Notes under the pieces: generated by a model
The model's database searches: none
What the model saw: only the letters and a program-made list of their open reading frames with translations
What the model was told of the DNA's origin: nothing
Position numbers and translations under genes: made by a program
Source of the DNA: Antitrichia curtipendula
Lineage: Eukaryota > Streptophyta > Bryopsida > Hypnales > Leucodontaceae
Direction: 5' to 3'
Assembly (NCBI GenBank): GCA_951230915.1
Contig: OX579635.1
Coordinates: 37,262,001-37,326,000 of the forward strand
Length of the DNA stretch: 64,000 bases
In this document: piece after piece, positions 27,031 to 49,723 of the stretch
Position numbering within the stretch: the first letter of the stretch is position 1
Layout of the letters: each line of letters starts with the position of its first letter

Positions 27031-27055
27031 TGCCATATTTAACTACTTTTGGACT
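27031..27055 (+). repeat. Left terminal inverted repeat of giant element
   Basis: 25 bp identical to the reverse complement of 49,699-49,723. A local hairpin (TTTTGGACT ... AAGTCCAAAA) spans 27,047-27,070. The same arrangement is seen at the left end of the small element at 54,223. Confidence 0.85.
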
Positions 27056-27262
27056 ATCGAAAGTCCAAAATTAATAAATGCACAAATCCCCCGATGGTGG
27101 AGGTTGCCTATTGATCGGGATTTTTCCAGATGTAATGTGGAATTTACACTTGTGTAAGGCACTATAGGGAGTCTATTTCCAGAGCTTAGAAATTAGGATA
27201 CAGAAAGTATCAAGATATCCCACGGTTTGAGGGTGAAACCTTTGTCTTAGCATTGGAAGTAG

Positions 27263-27715
27263 TACACCAAAGATGATATTTAGTGTTGAGTGACATTTAG
27301 TGTTTTTACCCCCCTACTAGCTACAACACTAAATCTGAACTTGTCCACAATTACTGTTAGACTTGAATGTGCCGGCTGCAAACTTCAGAGCCTTGTAACT
27401 TTTGTAAAAATTCTTCAAATCAGGAAAATGAGATGTTTTTCGGCATCTACAAAAACTGTAGATCCCGAAAAACATCTCATTTTCCTGATTTGAAGAATTT
27501 TTGCAAAAGTTACAAGGCTCTGAAGTTTGCAGCCGCCTAGCCCTAATCGGTCCGATTCTGTCCGTGAACAGTGATATTCCGTCTGATATGACAACTCTGG
27601 TTCACATTTAGTGTTTGAATTGACATTTAATGTTACTTACTTTCATAGGGTAATTGGCTTTTAGTGTATGCCTTCGTATTTAGTGTACAAGACACTAAAT
27701 ATCATCTTTTGTGTA
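27263..27715. mobile_element. Nested MITE with a 70-bp-armed hairpin
   Basis: Terminal inverted repeats of 24 bp (27,263-27,286 and 27,692-27,715, one mismatch, starting TACACCAAAGATGATATTTA) enclose a hairpin with arms 27,374-27,443 and 27,465-27,534 (about one mismatch) and a short loop that itself contains ATCTAC/GTAGAT. Copies of 'atttagtgt' cluster near both ends. No coding capacity. Confidence 0.8.
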
Positions 27716-28754
27716 GTGGATAGTTTTGATGTTCAAGAGAAGTTCACATAAGTCCCTCAAATGAATCCATGGCTGTGCTAAAGTTTACATATTGGCATCG
27801 TGGGAACTCCTGATGAACGTGGAACACGTGTGTCAACTTCTTTTAATACACGTATGACTCCAACCTGGGATTTGCTAATGTATTGAATGATGTAAAATGT
27901 TGAAGATAGTTAATTAATTTCCGCACTGTATAATAGTGGGAGAAACGTACCTAAAATCATCCATTCAGAAACATATGACCAATAAGACTTAAAACGTATT
28001 CTATACACTGTAGCCCATGGTAGTCAGACATGGTAGCCCAAGCGGTGAACAGAAGCACATGAAAGTGATTATGAGAAAACAGATCTACTTTGAATTATGA
28101 AGTGCATGCTACCTCATGGAATTGAGGATAAAGGGGGAAGTATGATCTGGATATCCCTTGATGGAGTGCTAACATCGTAAGGCAAGCGGGGACAATCGCA
28201 TGATGGAAAAAATTAATGCCAGCAAGAATGCATCTTATGCCTTATTTAGTTCTTGACTTCATAGAGTGTAGATAAACAATACCTAATAGTCTATATTAAA
28301 GTACTTTGGTGCATATTTCAGAACAATTAGCAAGCAGAATCCCAGATGACCACAAGTACAGGAGTTATTGAAGGAGTGATGAAACAAATGAAGAGTCATA
28401 ATCATAATATTGCATTCAACAGAACTATCTCGCAACATTGTAAATAGCCCTTAAGAAATCAAGTGCAACAAAGGCAAAAATAAAGAAGCCAAGCATGCCT
28501 ACGCATCAACTACAGCTGTGACATCAAAATCGGTGGTTGTCATGATAGAATAGGAGTAACATCAAATAGCGGACTTCATTTCATGAATTTACAGATCCAA
28601 TATACGACAACTTCAACAGCCTACTCTAATAGTTAGTCTAAGAATTTCATACAGAACCATGTACAATGAAAACAACTATTGCCAATGACAGTGAGGATTG
28701 ACAAGGCATCGTGACATCTCACGATAACCACGACGAACTGGATACAGTACTCGA
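27716..28754. other. Non-coding DNA downstream of the transposase-like gene
   Basis: No ORF is recognised. It contains a palindrome of the element family at 28,707-28,726 (CATCGTGACATCTCACGATA), just past the stop codon of the transposase-like gene, so it probably includes that gene's 3' untranslated region. Confidence 0.5.
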
Positions 28755-31700
28755 TCAAGGATCCGCCTTGTTGGACCTATTCAAATTTGCTAAGGCAGCC
28801 TCTCTACATTTCTTACTAATAGTCCGTGACTTTGGATCCACTATCTTGGACCAATTAGCGTACACTGCAGCATCTGCGTCCACCCAGATCGGGGGACGAT
28901 TTTCAACAACCCATTTTCCGTACCAACAATTACGGTACCTACATGCCATTGTAGTTTCTGAATTATCCGGTTGCCAATACTGTATTAAAAACTTCCCGTT
29001 GTTCACATCTCCTACCAATCTGCATACGGTGGACAATGCTCTTCCTTGCCAAACAGCACAAATATTTGGATCTTCAAGTCTGAGAAGAACCCATGAACCT
29101 GGGCGGATGTCAAGCCAAGGATTGAAGCTTTCTAATGGTGCTTCATTTGCAAGGCCGCAATAAGGTTCCGGGTCTTCTTCCTCCGGATTGACATCGAGCG
29201 GATTGACTCTCGCCCCTAGGTTGGATACATCATTATATACCACCCTCCAATCATGTTGTGGCCAAAAGCCTTCTTGCAATTCAGCAGGACACTCCAGGAG
29301 TGGTTCCTTTAGCTCATCCAACACACGTTTCCAATAATCGACGTATGGACCAAATGCAGTTGCGAATCCCTCGCACCTGGACATTCCGTTTTGCCAATAC
29401 TGAATATACTTCTCTAGTCCTACCATCATGAAACCCTTGTTCAAGGTAGCTTTCCTCGCCATTTCAAGAGCCTTATCTTGATTTCGCATTGACGCTTGGG
29501 GGACTTCGCTGCCCCACATGGGCTTGAATGGAACAGGCTTTGGACAACCGGAAGGGAGCATTGGCCGACCATTCCGGTCTGTCCTCCACAGGGATTGGGA
29601 AGGTTTATTTGATGGCAACCACTTCGAATCAACTGCTGATTTTTTGAAGTTCATAACGGGGACCCCATCGCTGTCCACATAGAACTTAAAAAGGTGCATC
29701 TCCCCTAACCCAATTAATCTTTCTCCACGATCGCACTGGTAACCCTTCACGAACGACTTGAAATCCCCCACCTCTTGTATAAACTCCGGCATAAATGAGA
29801 GTTCTTGGGACTGCATGAACGCTTTCATGAGATCAGCCACCACAAAAGTGTTCTTTGTCTTCAGTGCCTTAGACAAGTGGCTGAAATATGCATCAATGTC
29901 CTCATGAGTGTGTCCGACTAGTAGAAAGCCAACCTGAATTTCCTTGAAGACACCTCGTGCAGTGAGCAAGGACAAGAACGCCATTAGATATTTGTTCTTG
30001 TTATCCTTAGCGGAGTTGTCAAGTTGCAGATACAATTTCCTAGGAAGGGGGACGAATCCAATCCGAGCTTCTAGGTCAGTGAGCTTCAAGATGTCCATAC
30101 ACCTAGACTTTCCTCTAAATAGAGCCTCGAACATAGGGTTAGTCGGCGGATAGGGAAAAATGTCTCCAGTCTCTCGAATCGGTGGACCCTCTAATCGGCG
30201 AAACAATCTCACCAATGACGAGATTGTAAAGTTTGAATCTCCAGGCCAGCAGGACGGAGCATAGTGAGCATATGCACAATCACCGTGACCATGAGCTACC
30301 ATTCCAGTAACGCTCATCGGAAGCTGACCGAGTCTTGCCGTGGCCTTTGCTGTCACCCGCATTCTTGGGAGAGCTGTTTTAGATGTATCCATTTTATCGT
30401 GAATGATGCACATAATATCCTTCGGATTTCGTTTCAATTCCTCACGCCATGAGGCGTATAGCCGACGGCATGATGCTTGATGATTGAGATGTTGAGTTCG
30501 TTGCTTCATGAACTCCACGTACTCCGGGCTTCCTTTCGGTGACTTCAGCAGGAACTGCTGATACTGGTCGCACAAACTACATTTTGCAAAGGAACTTCCA
30601 ACAGGCTTTATGGACACATTATTAAAGTGCTCCTTCTTAAGTCTACTAATAGTTGACTGGCTGACGGTGGGGAGCCCGTAATCCGCATTCAACTGCAAAA
30701 AAAATTAAAAATTGATTGAGTGTACAAGGCAAGAAAACTATAGGACTTCAGGAGAGAGAAAGATAATAAGAAATAGACTTGAAAACCTGATGAATGACAG
30801 AAGAGAGCAGGCATCGTGATATATCATGATGATAGAGTCAATGAAGATATGTCAGGGAGATGAAACCCGACAAGAAGGATATAGATTAGTACCTCATTGG
30901 TTTCAAGTTGAACGCGTTTCCAGTTGTTTCCAGCAGGCAGGAACTTTAAAGTGTCCATTCTCCCGTTTCCTATGCCGCGCATTTGGTGCGGCATTTGGTC
31001 AGTATTATCATCAATGATTGATCTCATGGTTCCAGTGGCCTGAACCGTTCCAATCCTTGGGCGCTTGACCCCTTTGTTCCCATGTGTCCCTGAAACCCTA
31101 CCTTCTTTGTACTTGTCAATGTAATTATGGAATGTGGACTTCGGAATTCCATGAATAATATACCAAGCAGTGCCACAAACTTCAGCACCTTCCAGTGTGA
31201 CAAATTTCCGCTTGCGAGTCCCGTCCAAGGTGTGTAATTGTCCGCCGACAGCAATTCCGTATTCGCGCCGCTCATCAAAGGACTTCAAGTAGAACCTCTG
31301 CTTGACTAGAAGTGTCTTCTCTTGGAGAAAGAATTGGCAACACCTACTTCTGCAGCACTTTTCGGAACTGACCTTCCGGATTTCTTCTTCCGCAATTTTC
31401 CTGACGTACTGTGAATCCTTCTCATGAAGACTGGGCTTACGAACAATGAAGCGGTAAGGGGCCTTCAGTCTTCCACCAAGATAAGCGAGCGGGTCCTCAG
31501 CAACGGGAATAGCTATGAAATGGTTCAAGGTTTCTTTCAACGACCGGCCGTTGGGGAACCAACAGTCCGACAAGGGCCACCGAGCATGAGTCATAATGTC
31601 TTCAGAATTTCCCACAAAAACGTCCAAGACAGTAACACCAACACACTCATCACCAAGTGTTCCATCTTAGAAGTGATCGTCTGGCCTCCAGCAGTTTATG

Positions 31701-32176
31701 CGCCCCGACGAGAGAAGCACACCTGAAGAGTCCATTCGATGCACCTCAAGCCCATACCACAATTCCTGACAAATAAAACAGGATGTATTCAGGGGAACAT
31801 GCTCTTCTACCGACTTTACAACATCTACGGCTCTCCATAGTATTGTCCGGTCAAGCACATCAGACAGTGTTCGAAAACCCCTTTGCCCGGGGTTCAGGCG
31901 CAAACCACGAGCATCCTCAAAGAAACAACGAGGCCTCAACAAAACGAAAATCCACGGCTCAACCGGAATGGCCACACCAAGCCACTGCCCCTCCGGACGA
32001 ACCTCTACAATACAACCTTCTCCCACTTCTCCGAATCCAGGAACAAAGAGCTTCACTGAATCGCCCTTGTCAAATGGAGACGATCCAGCAGTGGATTCCT
32101 GTGAGTCCTCCTCGGATCCTGATACATTACCGACTGCGATAATTGCATCATCGACAGAATGTGTAGTCGAATCCAT
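28755..32176 (-). pseudogene. Transposase-like gene, DUF7869-type, one in-frame stop
   Basis: Coding exons are 32,176-30,893 and 30,692-28,755, about 1,073 codons, with a clean GT...AG intron (phase 0; acceptor ttttttttgcag). A single TAA at 31,669-31,667 interrupts exon 1; the frame continues on both sides. Order of parts: acidic Ser-rich start; residues about 38-115 resembling the plant DUF8039 domain of CACTA-type elements (GFRTLSDVLDRTILW); a basic, Cys-rich block (CCRSRCC); a helix-turn-helix-like VCGTAWYIIHGIPKSTF stretch followed by HGNKG; then in exon 2 a zinc-knuckle-like CSLC...H...C, and three acidic motifs IIHDKMD, LQLDNSAKDNKNKY and VGHTHEDIDAYF. From memory this C-terminal part matches the family catalogued as DUF7869. 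The spaced Asp/Asp/Glu-Asp motifs suggest an RNase H-fold (DDE-type) transposase, which is my inference. The intron holds a palindrome (30,812-30,831), and another sits just upstream of the start (about 32,204-32,224). Confidence 0.7.
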
Positions 32177-32203
32177 TACGAGCGTTCCCGTCTCTTCTCA
32201 GCC

Positions 32204-32633
32204 GATATCGTGATAAATCACGGTGCTCAGATCTCCTGCGAACAACAAAGGGCAACGTAGAGTTAGGGGAGTTGTGGTGTGAACACCCTTCCTTTGACAG
32301 ATATCAGCACTAATCAGAAACTAACATGGCACGAACTCAACCTAAACCGACTTGGAAGTTGGCCATAAAAGGTAATCCCCGAATTTGCTAATAATGCGAC
32401 CATGACATATCACGATGTCTTGAGGAAGAGTTCCTCCAAAGGATCCAGCAGACGACCAGATAGACCAGGGACCGTGAGATCTCACGGTGTAGCCATTGCA
32501 AGACCTATTCATAAAGACATCACGGGATATCACGATGTTAACATCGTGAGATCTCACGGTGTTGCCGCGGTGATATCAGTTCATGCAAGTTCCCAAAACT
32601 ATCTCGACTCAAACATCATGAGATATCACGATG
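32204..32633. repeat. Cluster of palindromes upstream of transposase-like gene
   Basis: Six copies of the palindrome family occur: about 32,204-32,224, 32,399-32,417, 32,471-32,488 (perfect, ACCGTGAGATCTCACGGT), 32,517-32,536, 32,541-32,562 and 32,614-32,633. They lie within 460 bp of the start codon, where promoter or leader sequence would be. Confidence 0.8.
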
Positions 32634-33560
32634 GCTATATCGGATCCACACGTGCCATCGTATTTCCTCTTCAATACGTAGGATTGGACGATACGCGTAT
32701 TATACTAGCATCTGACAGCCTACTAAAACGTCTGCTTTCAGCACTGAACTTCACAGACGTCTTACGGTATCCTTGCCTGGACCGGTCTCCAATAGAAACA
32801 TGAGCCCCGGTACGAGCCAGTCATCTGGCGTGTGGAAGAACCGACTGCGCCTAGTTGTGTATGCGGAAGCCTGTGCTGTCCTTCACTCTACGAATGTGCA
32901 AATCATGATAGACTACTGCCTATGGTTCCTAATTCTGAAGGTGGAACGCATGCACAGCACGACATGTAGAAACACTAAAAGTCTATGAACTCCTCTTAGG
33001 CTGCGAATTCTCAATTATACTTGAAACACAGCGTACTCCATCAGCTGCTGTATGCCGCTGCAATCTCAGTATCCTTAGTACCATTTGATTATGATGTGCA
33101 ACTTGTGGATGACGGCTAATGGAAACTGAAACTTTACAACTGACATGCAATGCACAGTGATGAGATCATACGGAGAATGGTGATGGGCACTGATAATCTT
33201 GTCACTCCACCTGAGAGCGCTGGGAAGAACAGAATGCACGGCCTCAAAAATCTGGAGCTTCACAGCGTCTTCACGTGTGCAAAAGAGCGTGCTCGACAAA
33301 CCTCTGGGACTATGACAGAAGTTAGTTTGGATCCGCGAGCTCCACTTTCCCGCCTTGATTTTGAGAGGGATGTGCGGTCTTGGTTTTTGAATTTCAGGTG
33401 CTTTCTTCAAGCGTGCGCTTCTTTGACCACCGGAAGGATCTGAAGATGCGATCTTCCGGACACAATATGCACTGCATCCTACAAGATCGACCAGCACTGG
33501 CACTGGGAGGTCGTGCGTGCGGTACTTTATTCCGAATTTTGACTACAATCTAGAATTCCG
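32634..33560. other. Mixed-composition DNA with possible upstream exon
   Basis: 33,240-33,440 is GC-richer. On the minus strand it gives a basic stretch (SGGQRSARLKKAPE, PRPHIPLKIKAGKW) that might be a 5' exon of the transposase-like gene. I found no convincing splice pair to 32,176, so it is only a possibility. The remainder shows nothing recognisable. Confidence 0.3.
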
Positions 33561-33979
33561 TGCACCACTGCGAAGCTGAAGGAGGTGCATGCTGTCATTT
33601 ATATTGAATCTTCTCTGGACTAAGGAAATTCGTTGCATTAACACATTGCATCGTTGCACCGTCACCTGCCACCCATTTTATGCTTCCTAGGGATAGGAAT
33701 AATCACTTAATGCCATGCTGAAGCGGAGTTGTCAACGATCCATTTCCGATGTTCACGTCATTTAACTAGTCTTGCTTACGATACTGTAATTCTGTTTTAC
33801 AATTCAAGGCCGGGTTTCAAGTAATTATATTTATATTTACGGTTGGCCATTCCCATCGATAAACCAGGGATCGGGGTTCTCTGTTACCAATGCTTGTGGT
33901 TTTAAAGAGGGTATTGGAGTCTACAGTCTGTGGTATTCGAGTTTTCAATTCCATGTACACAAAGTACAGAGTTCACAGG

Positions 33980-34170
33980 AATAGGGTGTACAACTCAACG
34001 GTTTAGGGTACAGGTTTGACGTTTCAGGGATTACAATATTATTCTGGGTTTAGGGTTTAGGATTCACGATATTAGGGTTTAGGGTTTAGGGTTTAGGGTC
34101 AACACATTAGGGAAAGACAACTTAGGGTACACGGGTTTAGGGTTTTAGGGTTTAGGGTTCACGGTAATAG
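33980..34170 (+). repeat. Interstitial telomere-like repeats (TTTAGGG type)
   Basis: Several exact TTTAGGG/TTAGGG units are interspersed with degenerate ones, for example about four units in 34,070-34,100 and three in 34,133-34,158. Degenerate 'ggttcacgg' and 'aggattcacgat' spacers separate the blocks. A further short piece is near 35,087. This is the canonical plant telomere unit but far from a chromosome end. Confidence 0.8.
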
Positions 34171-34462
34171 GATCCAGGGTCATGGTATTAACCAAAGTAA
34201 TAACCCAAGTATTGAATCTGGTTCGGAAATGCCTTATTGTATTGGTCAGCGACTAGGATACACAAATTATACGAGTAATTCCACTACCAAAGACAAACAT
34301 GTAGTTGAATTCATTATATCAAATGATGATGAATTTAAGAATATAACAAACGTTCATCCCAAGTAGTTACTTAGTGTGTAGAACATCTTTTGTAATTGTG
34401 GATCCAAATGTTTGCATTTCCATTCCAAATGTTTGTCCCAAAAAAGTGCTATCTTTCTAGAA

Positions 34463-34697
34463 GTTTGGAGATCCCTACAAACTTTTGTAAAAGAAAATGT
34501 GCTATTCGCCCCAAACATTAGGAAATGCCTCCAAACTTTTGTGAAAAAAATATGATATTCACGCCAAAGGTTAGGAGATCCCTCCAAACTTTTGTACAAA
34601 AAAATGTACTAATGGCCCCAAACGTTTGGAGATCCCTCCAAACTTTTTTTAAAAAAAATGTGCTATTTGCCCCAAACGTTTGGAGATCCCTCTGTCT
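34463..34697 (+). repeat. 54-bp tandem repeat, about 4.3 units
   Basis: Units start at 34,463, 34,517, 34,570, 34,624 and 34,678 (spacings 54, 53, 54 and 54). Each begins like gtttggagatccctccaaac and ends like ccccaaac. A-rich stretches give the open frames seen here; no protein is recognised. Confidence 0.85.
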
Positions 34698-34699
34698 AT

Positions 34700-37600
34700 T
34701 AAACTTCTATTCAAAAAATAGATATATCCAGAAATGGGCCTAAGTATTTTACCATATATACATATATTTTTATATAAAAAAAATATATTAATAAATTCAT
34801 TTCAGTCATATTAACCTCTTTTAGAAAGAATTACAGCTAATTGTGTTATACAACATTCGTTGGGGTTCGGAGGAGGGTTCAGGCTTTAGGTTTTACAGTG
34901 TTATAGGCCAACCACGTTCATAGAATTTTTAAATTTATATTGAATGATTATTTCTACATAAGAAGATAATTGGTGATTAACTTGTAGGCAAACTGTAGCA
35001 AACCCTGTGTTTTAAATTGATTGGAGAAGGATTAATATTTTCTAATTTTATGTACGAGCTAAGGTAAGAGGTGGCTGAGGGTTTAGGGTTCAAGGAGCCT
35101 TGCATTCAAAAATGGCCCTACATACAGCTGCGAAATGTATAGGAAGTACTCCTTAAATTGACCTTCTACAGTTAGCGAATGAATCCAGTCAAAATACTTC
35201 ATTGATTTTGAGAGCCATGTCTCATTTTCTTACCTATCCTCATCTATGTAGAGAAGTTCAAAGTAAACGGTTCATGGAAGCCCGGCCCGGGGCCATAAAC
35301 AAGTGCATATAATAGTAAACTGATTGAAAATAGATTCAATAAATAATTCAGTTTAGACTTTACTGAGTTCCTTTATGTGGAAAAATTCCTTTTTTTATTT
35401 TGGAAGATAGCTACAAATCTTTTAATGTTAATATGATTGTGTAGAAATCCAATTTTTTGAAAAAACTTCTAATACTATCCAAAGATCTTCCGATGTTTTG
35501 CAAAGATCTAGTGTCACATTTAAGGAATTTCGTTGTTAAGTGAATTATTCACTGAACATCCCAAGAATTTTAGATAAATAACGACATCAACAGCTCTTCC
35601 AACATTTGTATAGGTCTCTTGATATTTTACAATGGACTTTTTTGGAATTCCCTGTTCTAAAACTGATTTGGAGTTTTTCTTGTTTATTCCTATTAGTTTT
35701 TTTCATTTTATGTGTTTTTAGGTGTTCTAATTTCATTGAGGAGGGATCTTCAAAGAACCTGCCATTGTACATAAGGAAATTGTTGTACATAAGGAAGTTG
35801 TCGTTTTTTTGTGAACTCAAGGGATTTTTCATCAATTTTCTCTAAATCACCCTTATGCAATCCAAAGTGGTAGAATTTTCGCACGTCTCACATTTCATAG
35901 TTCTTTCCATGAGTCCTAATATTTGGTAGAATACAGAAGATGCAATTGTCCTATATGGATTGTTAAGAGTACCATAAGAAAGGACACATAAGACTTGTAA
36001 GATAGTTGTCAATCATTCAATTCTTAAGACAATGATTGCATTCTATTCACATAAATCTAGGACCGTTAAATTTGTATACTAACTGTCTTTAGATTATAAT
36101 CTAAGAAATTGAGAGGACTTCAAAATTGTTGAAACAAATGCGGCCAATCTATGTATTACTAGTATTTTGAACTCATGCAATCTAGAAAGGATATTGATAA
36201 AAAAAATTCAAAATTATGTACAAATGAATGAGATATATATTTAAAATCTTCATCTTAGTTAGATTGAAGCCTCCAAAATCTAGAAATACTATTCATTTTG
36301 CATAGTAAAATCTATCTTAAAGTTAGATTTCAGAGGCATAAATCTACATTCTAGAATATTGGATTTCAGATATTCAATTGATTTGGAGGTTGGGTCATCT
36401 TCTAATAACACTAAAAAATGCATGGATTATCTCCTAATCACCTTTTTTTCCCCCAATGACCATTATGAATTATGTGATATTCAAAAGTCTAGCAGTCGAC
36501 GTAAAATGTGGCTTGCAATTTTTAAATTTGGAGTGATTGAATACATTTAAGATTGTTCAATAAACTTTCATTATTTCATCATAGTAAGGATCCAAAAGAT
36601 ATAATTTTCAAATGAATGTTAAATAATATTATTGAATATACAATATAGATCATGTATTCATTCCATAATATATTGCATTATTGTTTTAGACCTACATATT
36701 AATGATATACGATGTACAAATGATTACAAGCAATGTTTGATTTAAAAGTAATATGATTGGACCATGAATACCACTTGAAACAAATTAGTATGTTCAAATT
36801 AAAAACTTCAAGTGAACCCCTCAATGTGAGCTAAGTGTAAATCCCTAAGAGTGTTTTTAAAACCCCTAGTGCCTCACAAACTGTGTTTTTAAAACCCCTC
36901 AGTATGAAAGACTTAGTCGTGAGTTCTCGCTTTCTGAAAATTATAATTGTAATATTGTCTAACTCGAGACATTCAATTCTTTTTCTCCCCGTTATTTTCC
37001 TATTTGTTTTACATATTTGTTGGTTTTGCAAATCAGAAATGATGAAGTCATTATGCATTTACATCCAAAAATTAATGTCAACATTGAGCAAGTCATGTTA
37101 GCAGGGTTACACGTTTAAGAGAGCAACAATTTAAACTGAATGTGGTCTCTCAAATGGATCATGACATAATGTTTTTATTTCTGCTTAATATGTGTTTTTA
37201 TTATTATTTTTCTTCTCAAATTTTTAAAATTAATTAATTAATTTTTTTTTTCTTTTTGGGCATTCTGTTTATTTTATTTTATTTTATTTTATTTCATTTT
37301 TAAAAAAAATTTAAAATTAAATTTTTTTTTTTAATTTTTAAATTTCTTTTTTTCTTTTTGGGCATTCTGTTTATTTTATTTTATTTTATTTCATTTTTAA
37401 ATATATATTAATTTTTTTTAAATTTTTTTTTTTTAAATTTTTTTAAATTTTTTTCTTTTGGGGCATTCTGTTTGTTTAATTTAATTTAATTTTTAAAATT
37501 TTAAAATTTTTTTCCATTTATCCAAATTATAAATATGAATATACAAAATAGATCACGTATTCATTTGATAGGATACGACATCATGATTTGAGGCCCACAT

Positions 37601-38320
37601 GATTGTAAATGATGTACAATTGGTTACTTGCAATGTTTTGAGTTGACACATGGACCATGAATACCATTTTTCACCCTAAAAATTTAAATAACATGTTTAA
37701 ATTAAATTAGTTTATTCACTTTAGTTAGTGTGAGCTAAGTGTAAGCCCCTTAGTGTGTTTATAATCCTCCTAAGTGTGAAGGACTTAATTTATATGAGTC
37801 CTTACTTTCTAGAAATTATAATTTCATTTACTTGAGACATACATATTTTTTACTCCCCATTTTTTTTCTCTTTGTCTGACAAATTTTTTTCGTGCCATTC
37901 ATTACAAATGACAAATTTCTTATGCTTTGAGTGACTTCTCTATTTATAAGATTTTGGAAGTTTGTCATTTTAAAGGTGCATAATAAACTAAGCCCCAGAC
38001 TAAGTTTAATTTTTTGGTCGGCATCTTCTTTTTAATTTTTAAATTTATCAAAATTCTTGTTATTCTTTTAAGTTTTTCTAAATCGAAGAATTTTAGAAAT
38101 TATTCCCTTCAAGTTTTGAATTTCTTCTTGAATTTTTTTTCCCTCGGCTTGCTTTTATATTTTTAATTTTTTTTTTCCTTTTTTCAGATTTCTCTTTCTC
38201 TAAGTTTCTTGTTCTCTTTTATCAATTTCATTTTTTCATTAATTTATCCCATTTTTATTTTAACAAATGCCCTACAAATTGTGTTAAGATCATAAAAGAA
38301 TTAAAAAAATGCGGCCTCGC
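34700..38320. repeat. AT-rich repeat block inside the giant element
   Basis: Two similar segments of about 350 bp (36,640-37,000 and 37,540-37,880) share 'tgtgagctaagtgtaa' and 'ctttctgaaaattataattg' type blocks. Between them a T-rich tract has three units (near 37,254, 37,358 and 37,459) of 'tttttgggcattctgttt' followed by (TTTTA)n. 35,400-36,370 is similar in inverse orientation to 63,200-63,740. No gene is recognised. The lack of element palindromes suggests that this is a later insertion. Confidence 0.55.
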
Positions 38321-38399
38321 TGCCAACAAGGGGGACATTGGCAAAATTAAGGAGACCTACACTTAACCGAATCTCTAATAAACATCTACTTAACCTCTA

Positions 38400-40067: not shown

Positions 40068-41490
40068 ATTATCGTGAGATATCAGAATGGTTAATATCAT
40101 TATACAACGGCAAGCATGCTTGGCAGCTTTACGTCGAAACGAGCTCCGTAATATTTCACGTTGAAAGTGTAGTCCCAGTTTCGACACATATTAGCCTCAG
40201 CTCCGAAATAGAATGTCGAAATCCCACGGTCACTTATACTAACAAACCATTAAAGAGTAGAGAGTGTGACTACTATCACAAGTTCGGACCGTCATATCTC
40301 ACGGTCGCTGGAATTGATATCCTCCCAGCCATAGCAAGTAGTACCTTCACCTACGAATTTGGATCGAGATATCTCATGGTCGCTGATACGGATATCCTAT
40401 CAGCAGAGGTCGTAGTACCGGCACTTTCCAAGTATGACCGTGATATCCCACGGTCCCTCATGTAAGTGCACATCCAACCATCACACAGAGTACCTGTCAG
40501 TCTAACAGAGGACCGTGATATATCACGATCACCTAAATAAGTGTCAGACCAACCTCGTAACATAGTACCATCAACTGCAACAGAGGACCGTGATATCTCA
40601 TGATCCCTCATGTAATTCTACCAACCGATTAAGAGAGTACCTTGAACTCCAGTAAAGGATCGTGATATCTCACGGTCCCACATGTAAGTGCACATCCAAC
40701 CCTTACACAGAGTACCTGCCACTCTAACAGAGGACCGTGATATCTCACGGTCTCTCATATAATTCTAGCAACGTCCTCACAGAGTACCTATGACTATAAT
40801 AGTCGATCGTGAGATATCACGGTCTCTCATTAAATTCCACCAACCTTTTAAGAGAGTACCTTGAACACCTGTAGAGGATCGTGATATCTCACGGTCCCTC
40901 ATGTAATTGTCCTACCAACCATCATACAAAGTACCTGTCAGTCTAACAGAGGACCGTAATATATCACAATCACCTAAATGAGTATCAGACCAACCTCGTC
41001 ACATAGTACCATCAACTGTAACAGAGGACCGTGATATCTCACGGTCCCTCATGTAATTCTACCAACCCATTATGAGAGTACCTTGAACTGAAGTAGGGGA
41101 TCGTGATATCTCACGGTCCCTCATGTAAGTGCACATCCAACCATCACACAGAGTACCTGTCATTCAAACAGAGGACCGTGATATCTCACGGTCTCTCATA
41201 TAATTCTAGCAACCTCCTCACAGAGTACCTATGACTATAATTGATGACCGTGAGATATCACGGTCCCTCATTAAATTCCACCAACCTTCTGAGAGAGTAC
41301 CTTGAACTGCAGTACTTGATCGTGATATGTCACGGTCCCTCATATAATTGTCCTACCAACCTTCACATAGGAAACCTTTGACACGAACAAAGGACCGTGA
41401 TATCTCACGATCCTTCATATAATTGTCCTGCCGAATTCCTGACAAACTACCTTTCACTATAACTGAGGACCGTGATATGTCACGTTCCAT
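40068..41490. repeat. Palindrome array, ~73.5-bp period with 441-bp higher-order repeat
   Basis: Fifteen regular monomers start at about 40,436, 40,510, 40,585, 40,657, 40,732, 40,804, 40,876, 40,951, 41,026, 41,098, 41,173, 41,245, 41,317, 41,392 and 41,466, preceded by degenerate ones. Each has a hairpin-forming core with arms GGACCGTGA and TCACGGTCC around TATC (GATC and inverted-centre variants occur), then a spacer with a conserved 'agtacc'. From 40,510 the spacings run 75, 72, 75, 72, 72, 75 and then repeat. Spacer sequences also recur every sixth monomer, so the higher-order unit is 441 bp. No frame stays open across the array. Confidence 0.93.
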
Positions 41491-41617
41491 CTTCGTCGCA
41501 GTCATTATGCCCTGTCACGTAGTACCATCGTTAAATGCTATCACAACTTCTGATAAATAGATTTTCAGGATAGTATTGCATTGCAGTAGTGCTAACCAAT
41601 AAAACCGACATGCTGCA

Positions 41618-44600
41618 GGGAGAACGTCTTACGTGAATGGTCCGACGACTATGCGCCTAAAAAACTCGCAATTTTCATCGACAACTGGGTGCATATGTTC
41701 CGTTACACTGGAAATCATCGGCCAGGAGCAGTTTTCCGTTGCGACAGTAAAATTACAGCTTGGGGTATTGAGCGGAAAGTGGGGCAGGATGGACTTACTT
41801 CGATCCTTCCCAAACTAGAGTACAACGATAAGATTCACCCTACGGCGGGGTTGGACATCGTAGAGATGCAGGGACTGGATAACTGCACTGCTCTCCTTGT
41901 GATTGTTGAGAAGGTACCAAAGTCCGACGAGTCGAAGACATATGGGCTCATCCTAGATTACGAGAAGCTGCGTCTGGACATGTGCGAGAGCATCACTCAG
42001 AGGGGAATGCTCAACTCCAAGGACGATTCGCATTTCTTCACCCCCGCTGAATTGAAGACGGAATGGAACATTATCGATGAGGACCGCCACGAATCCAATC
42101 CCTCTAAAGCAATTGTTGTGATTGCGCCTCCAGCTCCGTCCCCGAAGAAAAGAGCGCAGAAGCGAAAATCGATTGTCGGAGCGCCAGGGGACGATGTGGT
42201 AGTTGAAGCACCCGGGATAGCCAAGAGGGTGAGAGGGCCAAACCTTAGTATTCACAAATGCGTGAACATGACGGAAAATGAAGTGAACAGGCTCACGCCG
42301 GATCAAATGAAGGCAATGAACGCCCTGTACAAGTCAGTGTTCAAGCCAATGTACGCTTGGGGGAAGAAGCCACTGGTGGATGCTTTGGGTGATCCGATAC
42401 GTGTGCACTACAAGTACCTGCACGAAGCGCCAGCATGAAGATTTGTCTACAGAGGAGTGAATAAAGACCGGCAGGTTGGAATTGAGAACCGAATCCGCAT
42501 CGATTCGGACTATGAGTCTGCAAACAGATTCATTACCGTTCTTCCCCTAAAGCGCGGTCCTTACGGGGAAATGAAGGTGGTGGACTACTATCACGCCTGC
42601 CCAAAACGAGAACTCCTTACGAGTACAACGCACTATTGGATAATTGGCGGTCAACATACTGTGGCGGCGCACAGGAAACTGGTTGAGAATGGTGAAATTC
42701 CAGACTGTGACAAGAACATGACCTCCACCTTCAACATTATTCCAATGTGGTCACCCGAAGATAAGTCCCTAGACATTATGCACCTCTCCAAGGCACTGAA
42801 CCAGAACATTGCTGGAGAGCAGAAGGAACAGACCTTTCTAACGCAGCTTGTGCACGCACGCCTGAAATGGAGGGATATGGGTAGCCCGCAGCCATCCCTT
42901 ATGGGAAGAGCACACTCGAAAGAGTATCTTGTAAGTATTTCTCCAAACTGTTTCACTTCGTGCTTTTACTTCAATTTCTGTTCGCCGCGAGGGAGACCGT
43001 GACATATCACGATCGATCTAAGTGCACATACACCAAAACTATAACCGTGATATCTTACGATGCTGACATGAAGCACCATGAAATTGTTTCCATATCTATC
43101 GATTGCATCTGACAGATTCAGTGTTAATGAACAGGACTATATTCCAGTGATGGCAACTATCTTCACTAGTGTGAAGGGCAATGACTCTCCCGATTTGAGG
43201 ATTCCGCTTGTCTTCATGGAGAATGATTCCGATGGACAAATGGGTTAAAATCGAGAAGAAGTTCCTCGATTATGGCCTACCAGACGGCACTCCTTTCGAT
43301 TCGAAGAAGAAGAGGAAACCTCTCGCGCAAAATGATTTCAAGCCGCTGTATGGGCTCCGGACGGAGGACATTAACTATCTGGCTGACCTGGTGGATAAGA
43401 AGAAGGTATGCATGAAGAATTCCAAGGCAAAGGCCGGGCTGAACATGACCAGCCTCGTCGCCGCAGGTGTTAGACTTTGACTAGTGAGGGGCATTCAGAA
43501 CGAGCTTATGTTTGTTTATCGCCAGCATCCGTTGCCTAGCAAGGCAAAGGAGTACGTCCCTTACACATCAGTGGAATGGGATAAGTTTGCGGAGGAAAAA
43601 AAGATCACCAGATCGCAACTTGAATTCTGGGTGGACAAAACCAACGACACCGAACTGGGAAAGAAATGGTTGATAGGGCGCACAAAAAATCTTAACAAGT
43701 CGACCGACCCAGACCAGTGCCCACAGTCGGTGAAGGCGATGTGGTCGTCTTTCTTCAATGCCCATGCCAAAGCAGCTGTGGAAGAGGTACTTGACCAGAA
43801 ATTTGCAGATAATTACTTTTGCGCGGTTATGGACGAGAGGAGCTGGAATATCAGCACTATTCTAGCTGACCCTGCCGTCAAATCATGGCGGGGCCAAGAC
43901 AAACCGCATATATATTTTTGGTTTTTGTTCGAGGTCATGACTGGTGGGCCTCGGGCAAAATTGTTGGAGAATTATAAGCTCAAGAGACTATTTGATGCTA
44001 TCGAATACAAGGACGCAACTCGGAATATCTTGAGGGCCCGATCTCCAGCAGTGCTCATCACGGATGCTCAAGGATTCCACGACATTCTCTGTCATTTGCA
44101 GAGGCGGGTGGAGGATAGCAAGGTCCGGGTCTGGGACTGGCACCTCATAACCTACGTTCCGAAACTTGGACACGGCTTCCCGGCCTCTGCTACCGGAAAT
44201 GCATACAGCGTGTTCCTCGTCTTCCTATTTGGATACAACGAGGGCCAGGATAAGCAGAGTTGCTTCAACAGTTTCTTCACCGGCCAAACTGCACCCATGG
44301 AAGCAGTCTACAGAGCCCAAGACTTGTCCGATGATAATGCTTTCTATAGGCGACGTCCAAGGCCTTGGCTAATGATCTCCACTGCGCTAGTGATATTCGG
44401 TGATCCCATGATTGATAACATGGTGGTCGTGAATGTTAATGGCGGTGCGGAGTTCACGTTTCTGGGAGTGGTAAGTTCTATATCATTCTTCTTTTCCTGA
44501 ATTACGAGGATTTATAGTGCAACCTTTATCAGCCATTCTCATTTGTGCTCTGCTTTGTGTTTCATCAGTGGGCCGGTGCAAAGGTACTGGAATTGGTGGA

Positions 44601-44826
44601 TTCTTTGGACGCCAAGGAGTCGACTCTTCTGGTCGCCAGATCGATTTGGGACACACATCATCCGGCACCCCCACCCGCTGGTTACGTCGATGAAGTACCC
44701 TTAGACGACAACATCGACATCCATAGCGCAAATTCTAAAGAGACCGACAATGATCCGGATCAGGAGTACTCCTCGTACAGCAAAGAAGATACAATTCAAC
44801 CGCCCGTCGTGAAGAAGGTTGGCTAA
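41618..44826 (+). pseudogene. Large gene with ParB/DGQHR-like motif, broken
   Basis: Exons: 41,618-42,930 (acceptor tgctgcag, donor ctt|gtaagt), 43,135-44,470 (acceptor gaacag, donor gtg|gtaagt) and 44,569 to about 44,820. Breaks: TGA at 42,436-42,438, a frame change between 43,199 and 43,248, and TGA at 43,478-43,480. Each stop lies in an otherwise continuous frame. The segment 42,590-42,900 reads YYHACPKRELL, then HYWIIGGQHTVAAHRKL (42,637-42,687) and LNQNIAGEQKEQTFL. The GGQHT...A..K core resembles the ParB/DGQHR fold, in which this loop binds nucleotide or DNA. 43,900-44,470 contains VRVWDWHLITYVPK and NAYSVFLVFLFGYNEG, followed in the next exon by VWAGAKVLELVD. That order is reminiscent of a permuted amino-methyltransferase, but no DPPY-type motif is visible, so this part stays unassigned. 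KRKS/KKRAQKR patches suggest nuclear localisation. Confidence 0.5.
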
Positions 44827-45504
44827 CTTGTAGTGAGACCATGAGATATCACGATGCAGCTAGGCAATGCAAAAGTAGCATGCCTCGTGAAGGGCCTCCA
44901 CAATTTCACAGTGCGAAACTATTTGTTGTGTAATGTAGGGGGCTACTAATGTACTGAATTGTTGACAAGAATATGTCTTCACCTAATGTGATTAGCCCGA
45001 GGGTAAGTTCGTTAGGGAATGGGGGATTATGTTATCTTCCAGCTCTGTTTAATAGCTTTCTATGGAGCCTGTCACACAGTTGGTGTCCAAAACCTGTGAC
45101 ATTTAGTTATTCAGAACGTGACTTCTATCAGGTGCTGAGGTATTATACTGGCAGTGTTATAGTGTGTGCTGAGTTTTATATTATGATTTAAGCTAAAGAA
45201 CCTGGCGAAGGAAGCACAAAGGACTGCTTGCTATCCTATTATAGATTTCCGGATTGCAGGGTTGATAAGGACTGCATTGTACGGTTTGCAACTAGAATGA
45301 GATGATCACACAGAGTGTCATCATTTCGAGTGCCCCAGTTGTAGAGCGGAAACAACTTATCCTAAAATAGAAAAGTATTAGTTTTACTTTCCTGAAGGGG
45401 TGTCTCCGAGTGGCATTAGGATTTCCCAGTTCTGTCCTAATGTTACATCTTCCCCGTTTTGATGGCATTATTTCTAACTCAGTGGAATTTGTGAATTGTC
45501 GCAG

Positions 45505-46377
45505 AAGAAGGTTCCTGAGCCGGAGAAGAGGGCCAAGAAGTTAAAGAATTCGAGCGCCGGAAAACGTCGTGACAATCCTCCCTCGGTAAAGAAAACGGGA
45601 AAAGAGAAATCTGCGAAGAAGCCGGATAAATTGATGAAGAAAAGGGGTTCCCCATTAGCGCAAAATCGACCAATGCCAATCCTTCAGGATGAGGAGAGAT
45701 CGGAGACAGCAGTGGATGCTTTAGTCGCGGTAGAGCGGATTCCGGATGCTACGGATGCTGCAGCCATATTAGACTCTCTTGCAGCGGGTATTGGCCCTTC
45801 TCAGGATTCGCAGACACTCGACCAGCCAGGACCCATGCTGGAGAAGGAGGCCAGGCCTGCGGAGGTTTTTGATCGTAATGAATCTCTCTCCCTCAGTTTG
45901 GGGACGGGAGAGCAACATGCGGGTACGAGCGACGCTGCATCAGGATATATCACGATGTCCCATGTTTCTGAACCCAAGCCGGGAGTCGACATGGCTGATG
46001 ACGTTGTGGGCGACACTTTGATTGATCTGAACCAAATGAGTCCGGAAGCAGGCACAACTAAGGTGACTCGTACAGAAGTTGCATTCCACTCTGGAATTCC
46101 GGATGTCGGGAGGGTCAGGATCAGGAATATGTTTAAGGATATAGCTAGTTTTCCAGGTGTGAGTGTCGGAACGAGTAGCACTTTAACTACTAAAATGTCT
46201 AATGAAATTCAGAACGTTTGGCTTGCACACCAGTTTATTTACAAGAGCATTTTTGAAATTGCATTGGACCAGGGTTCGCAGGCAGAAGTGGTCGATGACG
46301 TTGACGACAGGAGGCCCGAAGAGGAAGTTGTCGTTGAAGGGAAGGGGAGCGTGGAGGACGATGCCAAAGGTGCATGA
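45505..46377 (+). CDS. Probable last exon: Lys-rich then acidic C-terminal tail
   Basis: The acceptor gaattgtcgcag ends at 45,504, and the frame continues in phase 0 from a donor near 44,810-44,820, so this is probably the C-terminal exon of the ParB-motif gene. The first 60 residues are basic (KRAKKLKNSS, KKTGKEKSAKKPDKLMKKRG), and the rest is acidic and Ser/Gly-rich. Only one short segment near the end (NEIQNVWLAHQFIYKSIFEI) looks helical and ordered. Both introns flanking this gene part contain element palindromes, and one palindrome (45,938-45,957) lies inside this exon and is translated as SGYITM. I recognise no domain. It could also be a separate gene. Confidence 0.45.
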   Translation, partial: KKVPEPEKRAKKLKNSSAGKRRDNPPSVKKTGKEKSAKKPDKLMKKRGSPLAQNRPMPILQDEERSETAVDALVAVERIPDATDAAAILDSLAAGIGPSQDSQTLDQPGPMLEKEARPAEVFDRNESLSLSLGTGEQHAGTSDAASGYITMSHVSEPKPGVDMADDVVGDTLIDLNQMSPEAGTTKVTRTEVAFHSGIPDVGRVRIRNMFKDIASFPGVSVGTSSTLTTKMSNEIQNVWLAHQFIYKSIFEIALDQGSQAEVVDDVDDRRPEEEVVVEGKGSVEDDAKGA

Positions 46378-46451
46378 GGTGACATCATGCATTACTTGAG
46401 GGATGGGATTCCTGGGCTACCGTATACAGTGAACTTGTGTCTAAGAGGCTG

Positions 46452-47132
46452 ATGATCCCTTGGGCTGCAGATTCTGTCCGAGCTATGGCAACACTACCAG
46501 GTTCATCAGAAGAGGTACCTTGTCGGAAGTATACAGTGGTCCTTGACTTGAATGGACTACTTGTTCACAGGACGTATATACGCACAGAACTTCATGTTCA
46601 GCGTCGTCCAGCTCTTACGGACTTCCTGGATTGGCTACGTGAAAAGGCTGACATTGTATTCTGGAGCAGTGTTACTTCCAGGAACATGAGCAAATTGTTG
46701 GACGTTGTACTTGCTGATGCTTCGTTTGGTCCTAAAGATGTCACTTGCTTAACTCAAGCAGCATGCACGCGGTCGAGGTACAGATTCGCAAATGCGCCGG
46801 AGAAACCGATCTTCCTGAAAGATCTGGGTACACTAGCACGCATGGCTGGTCTTTTGTCTCTACAAGACGTTCTCCTAGTTGATGACAGTCTAGTTAAAAA
46901 CCTTCTCAATGATCCTCACAATGCTGTATTCCCTCAGTCCTGGTGCGGTGACAGGCATGACAACTACTTGGATGGCCACCTCCGTCCTTGGCTTGAAGGT
47001 CTCTTTAAATCTAATGTAGCTGTTCCGGTCTATGTGAAGAATAATCCATTGTATGGCGGTCAGTGCCCGATGGAAGCAATGTCCACTGAGGGCATGAACA
47101 TACTGAGGGGGGCCCTGGACAGCCCGCTCTAA
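46452..47132 (+). CDS. FCP1/NIF-type HAD-family protein (CTD-phosphatase-like)
   Basis: HAD proteins of the FCP1/SCP/NIF group dephosphorylate Ser/Thr on proteins such as the RNA polymerase II tail, using an Asp-x-Asp motif. This intact 226-aa ORF has motif I as VVLDLNGLLV (Asp32 kept, second Asp replaced by Asn34), motif II as VFWSSVTSRN (residues 69-78), a motif III Lys in EKPIFLKDL, and motif IV as VLLVDDSLVKNLLNDPHN (140-157). The NIF-like RPALTDFLDWLREKAD stretch precedes motif II. The Asn variant also occurs in plant members of the family, so activity is uncertain. Start choice: ATG at 46,452; a second Met at 46,485 is possible. It lies 75 bp after the stop of the preceding exon and is followed by a palindrome at 47,141-47,158. 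I am sure of the fold, not of the substrate. Confidence 0.75.
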   Translation: MIPWAADSVRAMATLPGSSEEVPCRKYTVVLDLNGLLVHRTYIRTELHVQRRPALTDFLDWLREKADIVFWSSVTSRNMSKLLDVVLADASFGPKDVTCLTQAACTRSRYRFANAPEKPIFLKDLGTLARMAGLLSLQDVLLVDDSLVKNLLNDPHNAVFPQSWCGDRHDNYLDGHLRPWLEGLFKSNVAVPVYVKNNPLYGGQCPMEAMSTEGMNILRGALDSPL

Positions 47133-47686
47133 AAGGTGCCACCGTGAGATATCACGATACTTGTAAGGGTGTGTCAAAGGTTCAGGGTGTTAGATGTACA
47201 TTATAGCGTACTGTTAACGTAATCTTCAATTTTCTATAAAGTTGATACATTGAAGTTTGAAGTTGATACATTTTGAGTAGGTCAGGCAGTCTTGAATACT
47301 TAGCTCTAGTATTCTCGTACTTGCGGAAAAATTGATTGTAAATTATCATTCGATAGTTATAAATTTGAAGTTCTATGTAAAGTGACACCCATTTTGTATT
47401 TCTTTTTTATGTTCCATCCAGAGATCTCACGGCACTTCATCATGCATGTGAATTACATCTTTTATTCTGTGGATTCACTTACGAAATTAGACATGATGAG
47501 TCAGTCACCTGTTTTGCTGTATGTAGTGTAACGTGATCCATATTCACTGGGAGAACTCTTGATGGTTGGTTCACGCAGAAAACGTTGCTTGTTGTATTGA
47601 GCGTTGAGTCAGTCACCTGTTTTGCTATATGTAGTGTAACGTGATCCATATTCACTGGGAGAACTCTTGATGGTTGGTTCACGCAG
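47133..47686 (+). other. Spacer between the two HAD ORFs
   Basis: It contains one palindrome (47,141-47,158), a partial one near 47,421, AT-rich DNA and the first unit of a 108-bp tandem duplication that runs into the second HAD ORF. Confidence 0.5.
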
Positions 47687-47712
47687 AAGGCGTTGCTTGT
47701 TGTACTGACCGG
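47497..47712 (+). repeat. 108-bp tandem duplication at the start of the second HAD ORF
   Basis: 47,497-47,604 and 47,605-47,712 differ at only a few positions. The unit ends with an acceptor-like ttggttcacgcag and the first codons of the HAD-like ORF (LLVVL), so both the putative splice site and the beginning of the exon are duplicated. Only the second copy stays open. Confidence 0.85.
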
Positions 47713-48175
47713 TGATCTATGCGTCCATGGCAATGTTGTGGATCTCCCTCAGAACATCAACATACCGATTGGCTTTCACGGTCTTTTTCAATCTTTCGTC
47801 GAACATACTCAGTGTGTGTTGTGGTCGTGCATGCATACTTCGACTTTGGCAGAACTTCTTCAACGTCTTCTTCCACCCGGAATTTTGAGTGGGTTCCTTT
47901 ATATTGCCGGTGTTGACAAACCCGACAAGAGCAAGCCCTATCTGAATCGTAGTCAATTTTTGAAGCATCTCTTAAGTTGTCCTAAACAGCATAGTGTTCT
48001 TTGGAATCGAACCCTTGTAGTGCTCGAGTTAGATCCCCTGAAGTGGCCTCGTGCGCGCGTATTACAACCCTCAATATGCGTGAGGGATGATGTAGATTCT
48101 ATTGAATTGCAACGTCCCTACTATGTCCAGAAGGTGTTAAATGTTAGTAAGAAACCTTTCCGGCGAGCGGACTAG
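47687..48175 (+). CDS. Second, degenerate FCP1/NIF-type HAD exon
   Basis: This 162-codon open exon starts after an acceptor-like ttcacgcag. It aligns with the HAD ORF 500 bp upstream: KALLVVLTGDLCVH against KYTVVLDLNGLLVH, then FVEHTQCVLWSCMHTSTL in place of motif II and TLVVLELDPLKW in place of motif IV (VDDS). Key residues are lost: motif I reads LTGD, without the nucleophilic Asp at its usual place, and motif IV has lost the paired Asp. KPYLNRSQFLKHL keeps the family pattern around the motif III Lys. It is therefore probably a catalytically dead paralogue, or one chain of a two-domain protein. No ATG precedes it in frame, so the true 5' exon is unknown. Confidence 0.5.
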   Translation, partial: KALLVVLTGDLCVHGNVVDLPQNINIPIGFHGLFQSFVEHTQCVLWSCMHTSTLAELLQRLLPPGILSGFLYIAGVDKPDKSKPYLNRSQFLKHLLSCPKQHSVLWNRTLVVLELDPLKWPRARVLQPSICVRDDVDSIELQRPYYVQKVLNVSKKPFRRAD

Positions 48176-48699
48176 TTTAAATATCGCAAAGAATGCCTTC
48201 AATTGAATCTGAAGGCTCTTCTTTGTTTGTCTTGTATGAGCATCAATGAAATGTCATGAATCCAAGTTCAATGTTTATTGGAAACTAATTGCATTGTACA
48301 AAATACCTGTATGGTAATTGCTTTTGCCTTGTCATTTTGAATTTGCTGTTCTAATTAACATAGTAGGGATTACAGTCATCAAGAGATCTCCCGATCTCTA
48401 ATTCCGCACAAAAATCCAAACGGGCCAAAAGTTTTGGCTGTATCATCTGAGTTTGCATAAATCCCGTAGTGATTAGTTTCTTGCAAAGCGTAGAATCGTA
48501 ATTTCATGGGTTTCCAATACATCAAGAGATCTCCTGATGATTCATTTCAGTTACTACATCCCAATAAACATAGGAGTGCAATCCTCCAATGACAACGTTA
48601 CTTGGCATGTTCTCATATATGAGCCTGACATGTGCTACTTTGAATGGCATGGAGGGCTCTAAAATGTGAACATCTGAAGATCTCTTGATGAAGTGTACT
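48176..48699. other. Non-coding flank with palindromes
   Basis: Degenerate members of the palindrome family with AAGAGATCTC centres occur at 48,377-48,396, 48,519-48,540 and 48,671-48,690. Nothing coding is seen. Confidence 0.55.
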
Positions 48700-48719
48700 A
48701 GCATGACCTACTTCAAATT

Positions 48720-49650
48720 AGTCCCCTTCAAATTTTTCCCTTCCTACTTTGAACAACGTGGCAAACTCCAAAATGTTAACACCTCAAGAAGGCACATGAA
48801 ACTATACCATAACATACTTAGATCAAATTGGTCCCCCTCAATTGTTTCTCTTCCTACTTTAAATGACTTAGTCGTCTCCAAAATCCTAACACCATAAGAT
48901 CTCCCGATACATTGTATCATGAAATAGTTTCCATTGGTCCCCCTCGAATGTTTCCCTTCCTACTTTGAACAACGAGGCAAACTCCAAAATGTTAACACCT
49001 CAAGAAGGCACATGAAACTATACCATAACATACTTAGATCAAATTGGTCCCCCTCAATTGTTTCTCTTCCTACTTTAAACGACTTAGTCGTCTCCAAAAT
49101 CCTAACACCATAAGATTTCCCAATACATTGTATCATGAAATAGTTCCCATTGGTCCCCCTCGAATGTTTCCCTTCCTACTTTGAACAACGTGGCAAACTC
49201 CAAAATGTTAACACCTCAAGAAGGCACATGAAACTATACCATAACATACTTAGATCAAATTGGTCCCCCTCAATTGTTTCTCTTCCTACTTTAAACGACT
49301 TAGTCGTCTCCAAAATCCTAACACCATAAGATCTCCCGATACATTGTATCATGAAATAGTTTCCATTGGTCCCCCTCGAATGTTTCCCTTCCTACTTTGA
49401 ACAACGAGGCAAACTCCAAAATGTTAACACCTCAAGAAGGCACATGAAGCTATACCATAACATCCTTAGATCAAATTGGTCCTCCTCAATTGTTTCTCTT
49501 CCTACTTTAAACGACTTAGTCGTCTCCAAAATCCTAACACCATAAGATCTCCCGATACATTGTATCATGAAATAATTCCCATTGGTCCCCCTCGAATGTT
49601 TCCCTTCCTACTTTGAACAACGTGGCAAACTCCAAAATGTTAACATCAAA
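48720..49650 (+). repeat. 216-bp tandem repeat built of two ~108-bp halves
   Basis: The block 'ggtccccctcaattgtttctc' type recurs at 48,830, 49,046, 49,262 and 49,478, exactly 216 bp apart. A related half-unit ('ggtccccctcgaatgtttccc' type) recurs at 48,936, 49,152, 49,368 and 49,584. There are about nine monomers in all. One half carries a palindrome relic (cataagatctcccgatac). The array ends about 70 bp before the right terminal inverted repeat. Confidence 0.92.
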
Positions 49651-49698
49651 AGATATACTGATGAACTGCACCTTGAAAAAGTCCAAATTTGACCCTAA

Positions 49699-49723
49699 AG
49701 TCCAAAAGTAGTTAAATATGGCA
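49699..49723 (-). repeat. Right terminal inverted repeat of giant element
   Basis: Reverse complement of 27,031-27,055, 25 of 25 bases. The inner flank has two direct copies of AAAGTCCAAA, as at the right end of the small element at 54,462. Confidence 0.85.

Follow-up and report, generated by a model that had tools for sequence, protein, structure and literature searches.

An unusual protein module and an apparently co-evolving palindrome code in a giant terminal-inverted-repeat transposon of a moss

Transposons of the Sola superfamily have a DDD-type transposase and create 4-bp target-site duplications; according to the accounts we drew on they occur in the moss Physcomitrella, and some exceed 15 kb (PMC10741241, PMC9033089). 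In the VANDAL elements of Arabidopsis the transposon-encoded protein VANC is described as binding short motifs arrayed in introns and upstream regions and relieving silencing, and the motifs are said to lie mainly in non-coding DNA, to differ in type among related subfamilies and to co-evolve (PMC5735166). VANDALs are classed as MuDR-type, and fungal DNA transposons with TET/JBP dioxygenases are a described case of cargo that may act on epigenetic marks (PMC12730594). Here we analyze a stretch of 64,000 nucleotides from the moss Antitrichia curtipendula (the window; contig OX579635.1, here C3, C3:37262001-37326000 of the 400.2-Mb assembly GCA_951230915.1 with its 303 contigs), in which positions 27030-49724 are, with near certainty, a single DNA transposon of 22,695 bp. 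It is a giant transposon with terminal inverted repeats (TIRs) and an unusual protein module, and its palindromes form a code that seems to evolve jointly with the element. We are not aware of another DNA transposon of plants that measures about 20 kb and carries several conserved genes as a module, and in the literature searched at overview level (on giant plant transposons, ParB, bryophyte superfamilies and palindromes) a comparable element is not described.

The element is bounded by perfect TIRs of 26 bp, with TCTT adjoining both ends as a 4-bp target-site duplication. By plain arithmetic, a perfect 26-bp inverted pair is expected by chance about 1e-6 times in 64 kb. An earlier note, made from the letters of the window alone, had described a perfect 25-bp repeat here; the perfect match stands, but each end was off by one base and the length is 26 bp. 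The nearest copy that we read (E4, C2:5558376-5582482) is 95-98% identical to the window element in long blocks, and the homology ends within 4 bp of the element ends. The AT-rich middle (34-40 kb) is shared by E4 in such blocks, and we therefore rejected it as a foreign insert of the window copy alone.

Within the genome the 26-bp end occurs 1060 times in forward and 1068 times in reverse orientation with up to three mismatches, and a reversed control gave 0 and 0. The first 100 of these 2128 matches, all of them perfect, cover C1 and roughly half of C2; among them are 21 miniature pairs of 241 bp (42 ends) and six large pairs (12 ends). Four of the other 46 read as miniatures, and 40 of the remaining 42 were sampled as 630-bp stretches, with up to four mismatches allowed in the partner end. 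A partner at 145-268 bp identifies 38 of the 40 as miniatures, 29 of them with exact 4-bp duplications that differ from place to place; the other two have no partner in reach. Five of the six large pairs (E2-E6) are full-length elements with the same genes in the same order, measuring 18.4, 21.0, 24.1, 23.1 and 22.1 kb, flanked by exact duplications (TCAT, ACAA, TCAT, TGTT and TAGT, respectively) and containing no additional end at up to five mismatches. The sixth, E1, has no transposase and pairs a truncated element with an adjacent miniature: the left end belongs to a 241-bp miniature that has a TCAT/TCAT duplication of its own. We therefore rejected E1 as a full-length element and kept it as a truncated locus in the palindrome and substitution-rate comparisons. 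The earlier note had proposed a single element and suggested looking for its paired ends elsewhere at 20-25 kb spacing; the matched TCTT, the five further full-length pairs and the one gene order bear this reading out.

A miniature relative also lies within the window, at 54.2 kb. It matches the left end of the element over 50 bp at 90% and the right end over 50 bp at 86%, in keeping with the end structures noted earlier, and both ends consequently belong to one family. GTGT flanks this miniature, provided that its right end has lost one base. The family is a large one of TIR DNA transposons with 26-bp ends and 4-bp duplications; in complete form its members measure about 18-24 kb and encode a DUF7869 transposase along with a conserved cargo module. 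As expected of class II elements, inverted ends with a constant 4-bp duplication are found in the window, in five of the six large pairs and in 29 of the 38 sampled miniatures, and the transposase encoded has a predicted RNase H-like fold.

The earlier note had seen a transposase-like gene on one strand and a multi-gene module on the other. The transposase is on the minus strand, with DUF7869 as the sole Pfam match of its main exon (E = 4.4e-44), and the cargo open reading frames (ORFs) are on the plus strand. In 42 transposase sequences D229 and D269 are invariant and D103 and D106 are present in at least 90%, from which a catalytic triad can be provisionally assigned. We infer that the protein is a DDE/D enzyme acting on the element ends. 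DUF7869, an unnamed family whose name was not found in the literature searched, gains a transposase role, supported by the predicted fold, the ends and the duplications. In a protein search of the genome, 68 of 1726 first-look candidates were scored; all 68, among them the exon of the window, are transposase exons with identities of 80% or higher, and 17 of them are stop-free. About 8000 candidates were scored in each of two other searches, and the counts are therefore lower bounds. Those relatives of the transposase that bear an organism name come from two mosses and one liverwort (Physcomitrium, Ceratodon and Riccia). The 4-bp target duplication is common to Sola and this family. Sola elements are mostly 2-9 kb in the published descriptions cited above, against 18-24 kb here, and ParB/methyltransferase-like and HAD cargo and palindromes go unmentioned in the parts of those descriptions consulted. 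The element is perhaps Sola-like, the comparison being of descriptions rather than of transposase sequences.

Cargo gene 1 contains a ParB-like motif that can be recognized by eye (IIGGQHTVxAHxxL ... LNQNIAGEQ), as the earlier note had reported, but profile searches do not uphold the label ParB; the sole profile match on this stretch is PHROG 3650, of function not known (E = 0.15). The second coding stretch has a predicted methyltransferase-like fold, which is its likeness to N6-adenine/N4-cytosine DNA methyltransferases. The catalytic motif of those enzymes is (D/N/S)PP(Y/F/W). In cargo gene 1 this is absent, and at the place expected from strand order the window and the six relatives covering it have instead a TDAxGF-like sequence. 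Cargo gene 1 would thus be a ParB-like motif joined to a methyltransferase-like fold that lacks the catalytic motif. PDB sequence searches with the transposase and with cargo gene 1 gave no meaningful relatives. The HAD-type gene of the earlier note is HAD1, which matches PF03031 with E = 1.6e-18. FCP1/NIF-type HAD phosphatases have the catalytic motif DxD, and in HAD1 the corresponding sequence is DLN, within a DLNG motif present in all seven loci (the window and E1-E6). HAD2 matches HAD1 weakly (hhalign probability 4.7, E = 0.0085).

Judged by gene order, which is identical in the six complete loci (the window and E2-E6), the cargo is part of the element. Ratios of non-synonymous to synonymous substitution rates (dN/dS) were calculated by the Nei-Gojobori method on aligned stretches only, and dS is saturated in four pair values. 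In comparisons between subfamilies, in which dS reaches about 0.7 or higher, the transposase has a dN/dS of 0.09-0.27, HAD1 one of 0.17-0.39 and HAD2 one of 0.29-0.42. The three parts of cargo gene 1 have values of 0.18-0.30, 0.11-0.19 and 0.09-0.12, respectively, and in both the second and the third part two of four pair values are saturated. By these ratios the cargo ORFs are mostly under purifying selection. Comparisons within subfamilies mostly give higher ratios (0.14-2.11). None of the seven loci is free of stops and frame breaks in or between its matched stretches, which is what decaying copies should show; some of the stops in loci other than the window may fall outside true exons. From transposases we predicted the place of cargo gene 1 at 11 loci, comprising six of the seven other window-subfamily copies (E4, already known, being excluded) and five of the 16 other stop-free ones. 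It is present in eight (L065, L067-L070 and L073-L075). In public protein data, transposase and cargo relatives come twice from contigs of identical size (136,455 and 292,341), which suggests, through matching sizes rather than direct sight, that the two are linked in other genomes.

Within the window, A-type palindromes are confined to the element. All 29 window sites within two mismatches of CGTGATATCTCACG (A-type) are inside it and none is outside, where 40 Markov shuffles give an expectation of 0.1 for the element. The earlier note had held the palindrome family to be absent from the rest of the window, which is correct for this type; the miniature at 54.2 kb has a single related site, CGGGAGATCTCCCG, of the kind that characterizes sister subfamilies. 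In E1, E2, E3, E5 and E6 the sites are of B-type, CATCGGGAGATCTCCCGATG. Only four of the 173 sites over the seven loci fall within coding matches, all four in ORF45. Positions correspond across loci: sites occur at the transposase intron, upstream of the transposase, upstream of cargo gene 1 and in its intron, and in the two gaps that separate cargo gene 1 from HAD1 and HAD1 from HAD2. The window, E3, E4 and E6 also have a site 3' of the transposase, which is not seen in E2 or E5. The array upstream of the transposase is spaced at 72 bp in the window and 48 bp in E3, and that upstream of cargo gene 1 at 72/75 bp in the window and about 96 bp in E6. These spacings are near multiples of 24 (48, 72, 96), on which we make no claim because tandem duplication explains equal spacing. 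With some exceptions, corresponding places are A-type in the window and E4 and B-type in the other loci.

Dispersed sites that are kept at corresponding non-coding positions and switch type in concert imply a sequence-specific factor accompanying the element, and we consider it likely that this factor is encoded by the element. Cargo gene 1 is our candidate for the palindrome reader, a choice we hold with about even confidence. By analogy, VANC of the VANDAL elements is the best-matching known system, in that the motifs here too are non-coding, arrayed and subfamily-specific. In our preferred explanation, for which we judge the case evenly balanced, an element-encoded DNA-binding protein, most likely the product of cargo gene 1, would bind the palindromes in gene gaps, introns and promoters and keep the chromatin or the promoters of the element active, in the manner of VANC. 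A shift of protein specificity in one lineage would then lead the sites of that lineage to change together. That the purpose is anti-silencing or self-regulation, rather than partition or transposition, is suggested by the same analogy and falls a little short of an even prospect. There are differences from VANDAL. The transposase exon has DUF7869 as its only Pfam match where VANDALs have a Mutator-type transposase, the VANC21 motif is given as nine bases and directional where the palindromes here are 14-20 bp, and the profiles tested showed no relation between the candidate reader and VANC. The fungal TET/JBP transposons, as far as described in the source cited, are likewise DNA transposons with cargo, with different enzymes and hosts. 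More tentatively, prokaryote-type parts (a ParB-like motif and a retired DNA methyltransferase) brought together in one plant transposon protein, working with element-wide palindromes, might constitute an independently evolved, DNA-coded identity system for self-recognition and escape from silencing. The subfamilies provide natural replicate experiments, since they have common ends and genes and a different site code; co-evolution, self-recognition and anti-silencing are therefore testable by swapping proteins and sites.

Several results weigh against this explanation. Some sites do not follow the type of their locus: there is one A-like site in the HAD1-HAD2 gap of each of E1, E3 and E6, five sites are tied between types (one each in E2, E3 and E6 and two in E5), B-like sites occur upstream of cargo gene 1 in the window (two) and E4 (one), and the window and E4 each have one B-like site 3' of HAD2. 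The sites could also be read by a host factor or by a different protein of the element, such as the transposase. The ParB-like stretch matches no ParB profile of Pfam, NCBIfam or PHROG and no PDB sequence, and the methyltransferase model is middling (mean predicted local distance difference test score 71.8, predicted template-modelling score 0.47). A Foldseek search alone with the transposase model gave no match at E <=0.001, the best being Mos1 at 0.019; the absence of a family from such structure searches does not exclude it. ORF45 is fast-evolving (between-subfamily dN/dS 0.43-0.86), and cargo gene 1 is missing from three of the 11 predicted places (L066, L071 and L072), L072 having only a weak HAD1-like match.

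The palindromes might alternatively be sites of the transposition machinery that join the distant ends of a 20-kb element, with cargo proteins helping to move so long an element. This is the main rival because 36 of the 38 miniatures with a partner end keep a B-type site (up to three mismatches), usually 53-55 bp from one end, which also counts against our preferred explanation. B-like half sites can moreover be seen by eye near the ends of all seven loci, including the window. We nevertheless think it rather unlikely. The 241-bp miniatures are mostly one amplified family and thus not independent, and the majority of sites are remote from the ends, next to genes and inside introns. The window and E4 combine A-type internal sites with ends that are still B-like; the ends seem not to have switched type. 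A second group of miniatures, of 259-268 bp (L001, L030, L039, L053, L056 and L059), has several B-like palindromes each.

A true ParB/parS-like system, in which a ParB-like protein would spread outward from the palindromes to mark or compact the element, perhaps so that an excised or replicating form is maintained, would account for the pairing of a ParB-like motif with 14-20-bp palindromes. Bacterial and phage ParB-methyltransferase proteins exist, and the joined methyltransferase-like fold recalls the bacterial ones. This reading is improbable given that no ParB profile matches, that none of the ten ORFs scanned has a ParA-like match, and that viral contigs, bacterial and archaeal genomes, phages and plasmids yielded no confirmed or convincing relative (weak hits of E 4 or worse). 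Very unlikely, too, is that the palindromes serve no function for the element and are debris of tandem duplication and gene conversion, homogenized in type within each copy. Arrays do grow by tandem duplication, but single dispersed sites are kept at corresponding gaps and introns across subfamilies, avoiding coding matches, and they are kept though no DNA match longer than 150 bp survives outside coding stretches. That the two ends come from separate short elements with unrelated genes between them, the case that the earlier note had said would overturn its reading, occurs once, at E1, and otherwise has next to no probability, because the window and E2-E6 share one gene order, are flanked by matched duplications and contain no internal ends; for the window copy it was rejected on these duplications and ends and on the limits of E4 homology.

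The palindrome code may extend beyond the two types. In two more copies, L073 and L074, which have diverged to 44% identity in the methyltransferase-like part of cargo gene 1, A- and B-type sites were not found in the stretch examined. An ATCTGGA-5/6-TCCAGAT palindrome is present upstream of cargo gene 1 three times in L073 and twice in L074, and near-palindromes number 5 and 6 against 2.6 and 2.3 expected. A possible third palindrome type is a lead here, not a result. In P0122, a relative encoded in another assembly, the final residues may be read through from an intron containing a similar palindrome, judging by the residues only.

The window copy itself carries stops. Its transposase has TAA at 31664-31666, where the five other copies read have Q, and cargo gene 1 has TGA at 42436-42438, where the six other loci have G, as well as an in-frame TGA at 43478-43480 and a frameshift near 43230 (judged against P0121). 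With these lesions in both genes, the copy is probably non-autonomous. Feature coordinates are collected in Table 1.

Table 1. Coordinates of the element, its genes and palindromes, and the neighboring miniature, in window positions
Feature	Position	Strand	Remark
Target-site duplication TCTT, left	27026..27029		
26-bp TIR, left	27030..27055	+	1060 + 1068 genome matches, <=3 mismatches
Palindrome directly 3' of transposase gene	28710..28723		
Transposase main exon	28755..30704	-	DUF7869 (PF25273), predicted RNase H-like domain, C-terminal BAH/SH3-like barrel
Palindrome at transposase intron	30815..30828		
Transposase 5' coding region	30827..32197	-	limits inferred
Palindrome array upstream of transposase	32209..32630		spacings 192, 72, 72, 72; further 3-mismatch site 32521
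Telomere-like TTTAGGG cluster	34002..34157	+	similar clusters in E1, E3, E4, E6
Palindrome array upstream of cargo genes	40073..41484		mostly 72/75-bp spacing
Cargo gene 1, first coding stretch	41596..42930	+	N-terminal region and ParB-like motif (42439-42930)
Two palindromes in cargo gene 1 intron	42998..43059		48 bp apart
Cargo gene 1, second coding stretch	43135..44473	+	predicted methyltransferase-like fold; putative splice sites
Cargo gene 1, last coding stretch	44572..44826	+	putative exon
Palindrome soon after cargo gene 1 stop codon	44840..44853		
ORF45	45478..46377	+	no family match, least conserved cargo ORF
HAD1	46383..47132	+	FCP1/NIF-like HAD protein, PF03031
Palindrome soon after HAD1 stop codon	47143..47156		
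HAD2	47645..48175	+	conserved ORF, possibly degenerate HAD paralogue
216-bp tandem repeats just inside right end	48713..49653		~4 units in window, ~10 in E4
26-bp TIR, right	49699..49724	-	
Target-site duplication TCTT, right	49725..49728		
Miniature non-autonomous relative	54223..54463	+	both end types and one B-type palindrome (54397)

Within the element, five of the seven loci have clusters of the plant telomere repeat TTTAGGG; none is present in E2, and E5 has only a pair at another place. Near the left end, 27373-27535 is an inverted repeat capable of forming a hairpin (163 bp, 94%), which was also found on comparing the window with E4. Outside the element, a Copia-type retrotransposon occupies 19193-25668, with an 888-amino-acid ORF that matches RVT_2 and integrase. 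Positions 19659-19843 and 25139-25323 form a direct repeat of 185 bp (98.9% identical), perhaps part of its long terminal repeats. A split ribosomal protein L6 gene with one intron lies at about 15.9-17.1 kb (within 15700-17200; Pfam E = 1.6e-9) and is of plastid type by eye; in its region, 16323-16517 and 16516-16712 are near-duplicates at 83%. A repeat family is present on both sides of the element: a repeat of about 1.4 kb occurs at 3469-4843 and 55051-56537 (87-89% identity), and the first 6 kb of the window has additional matches to 56.5-59.1 kb.
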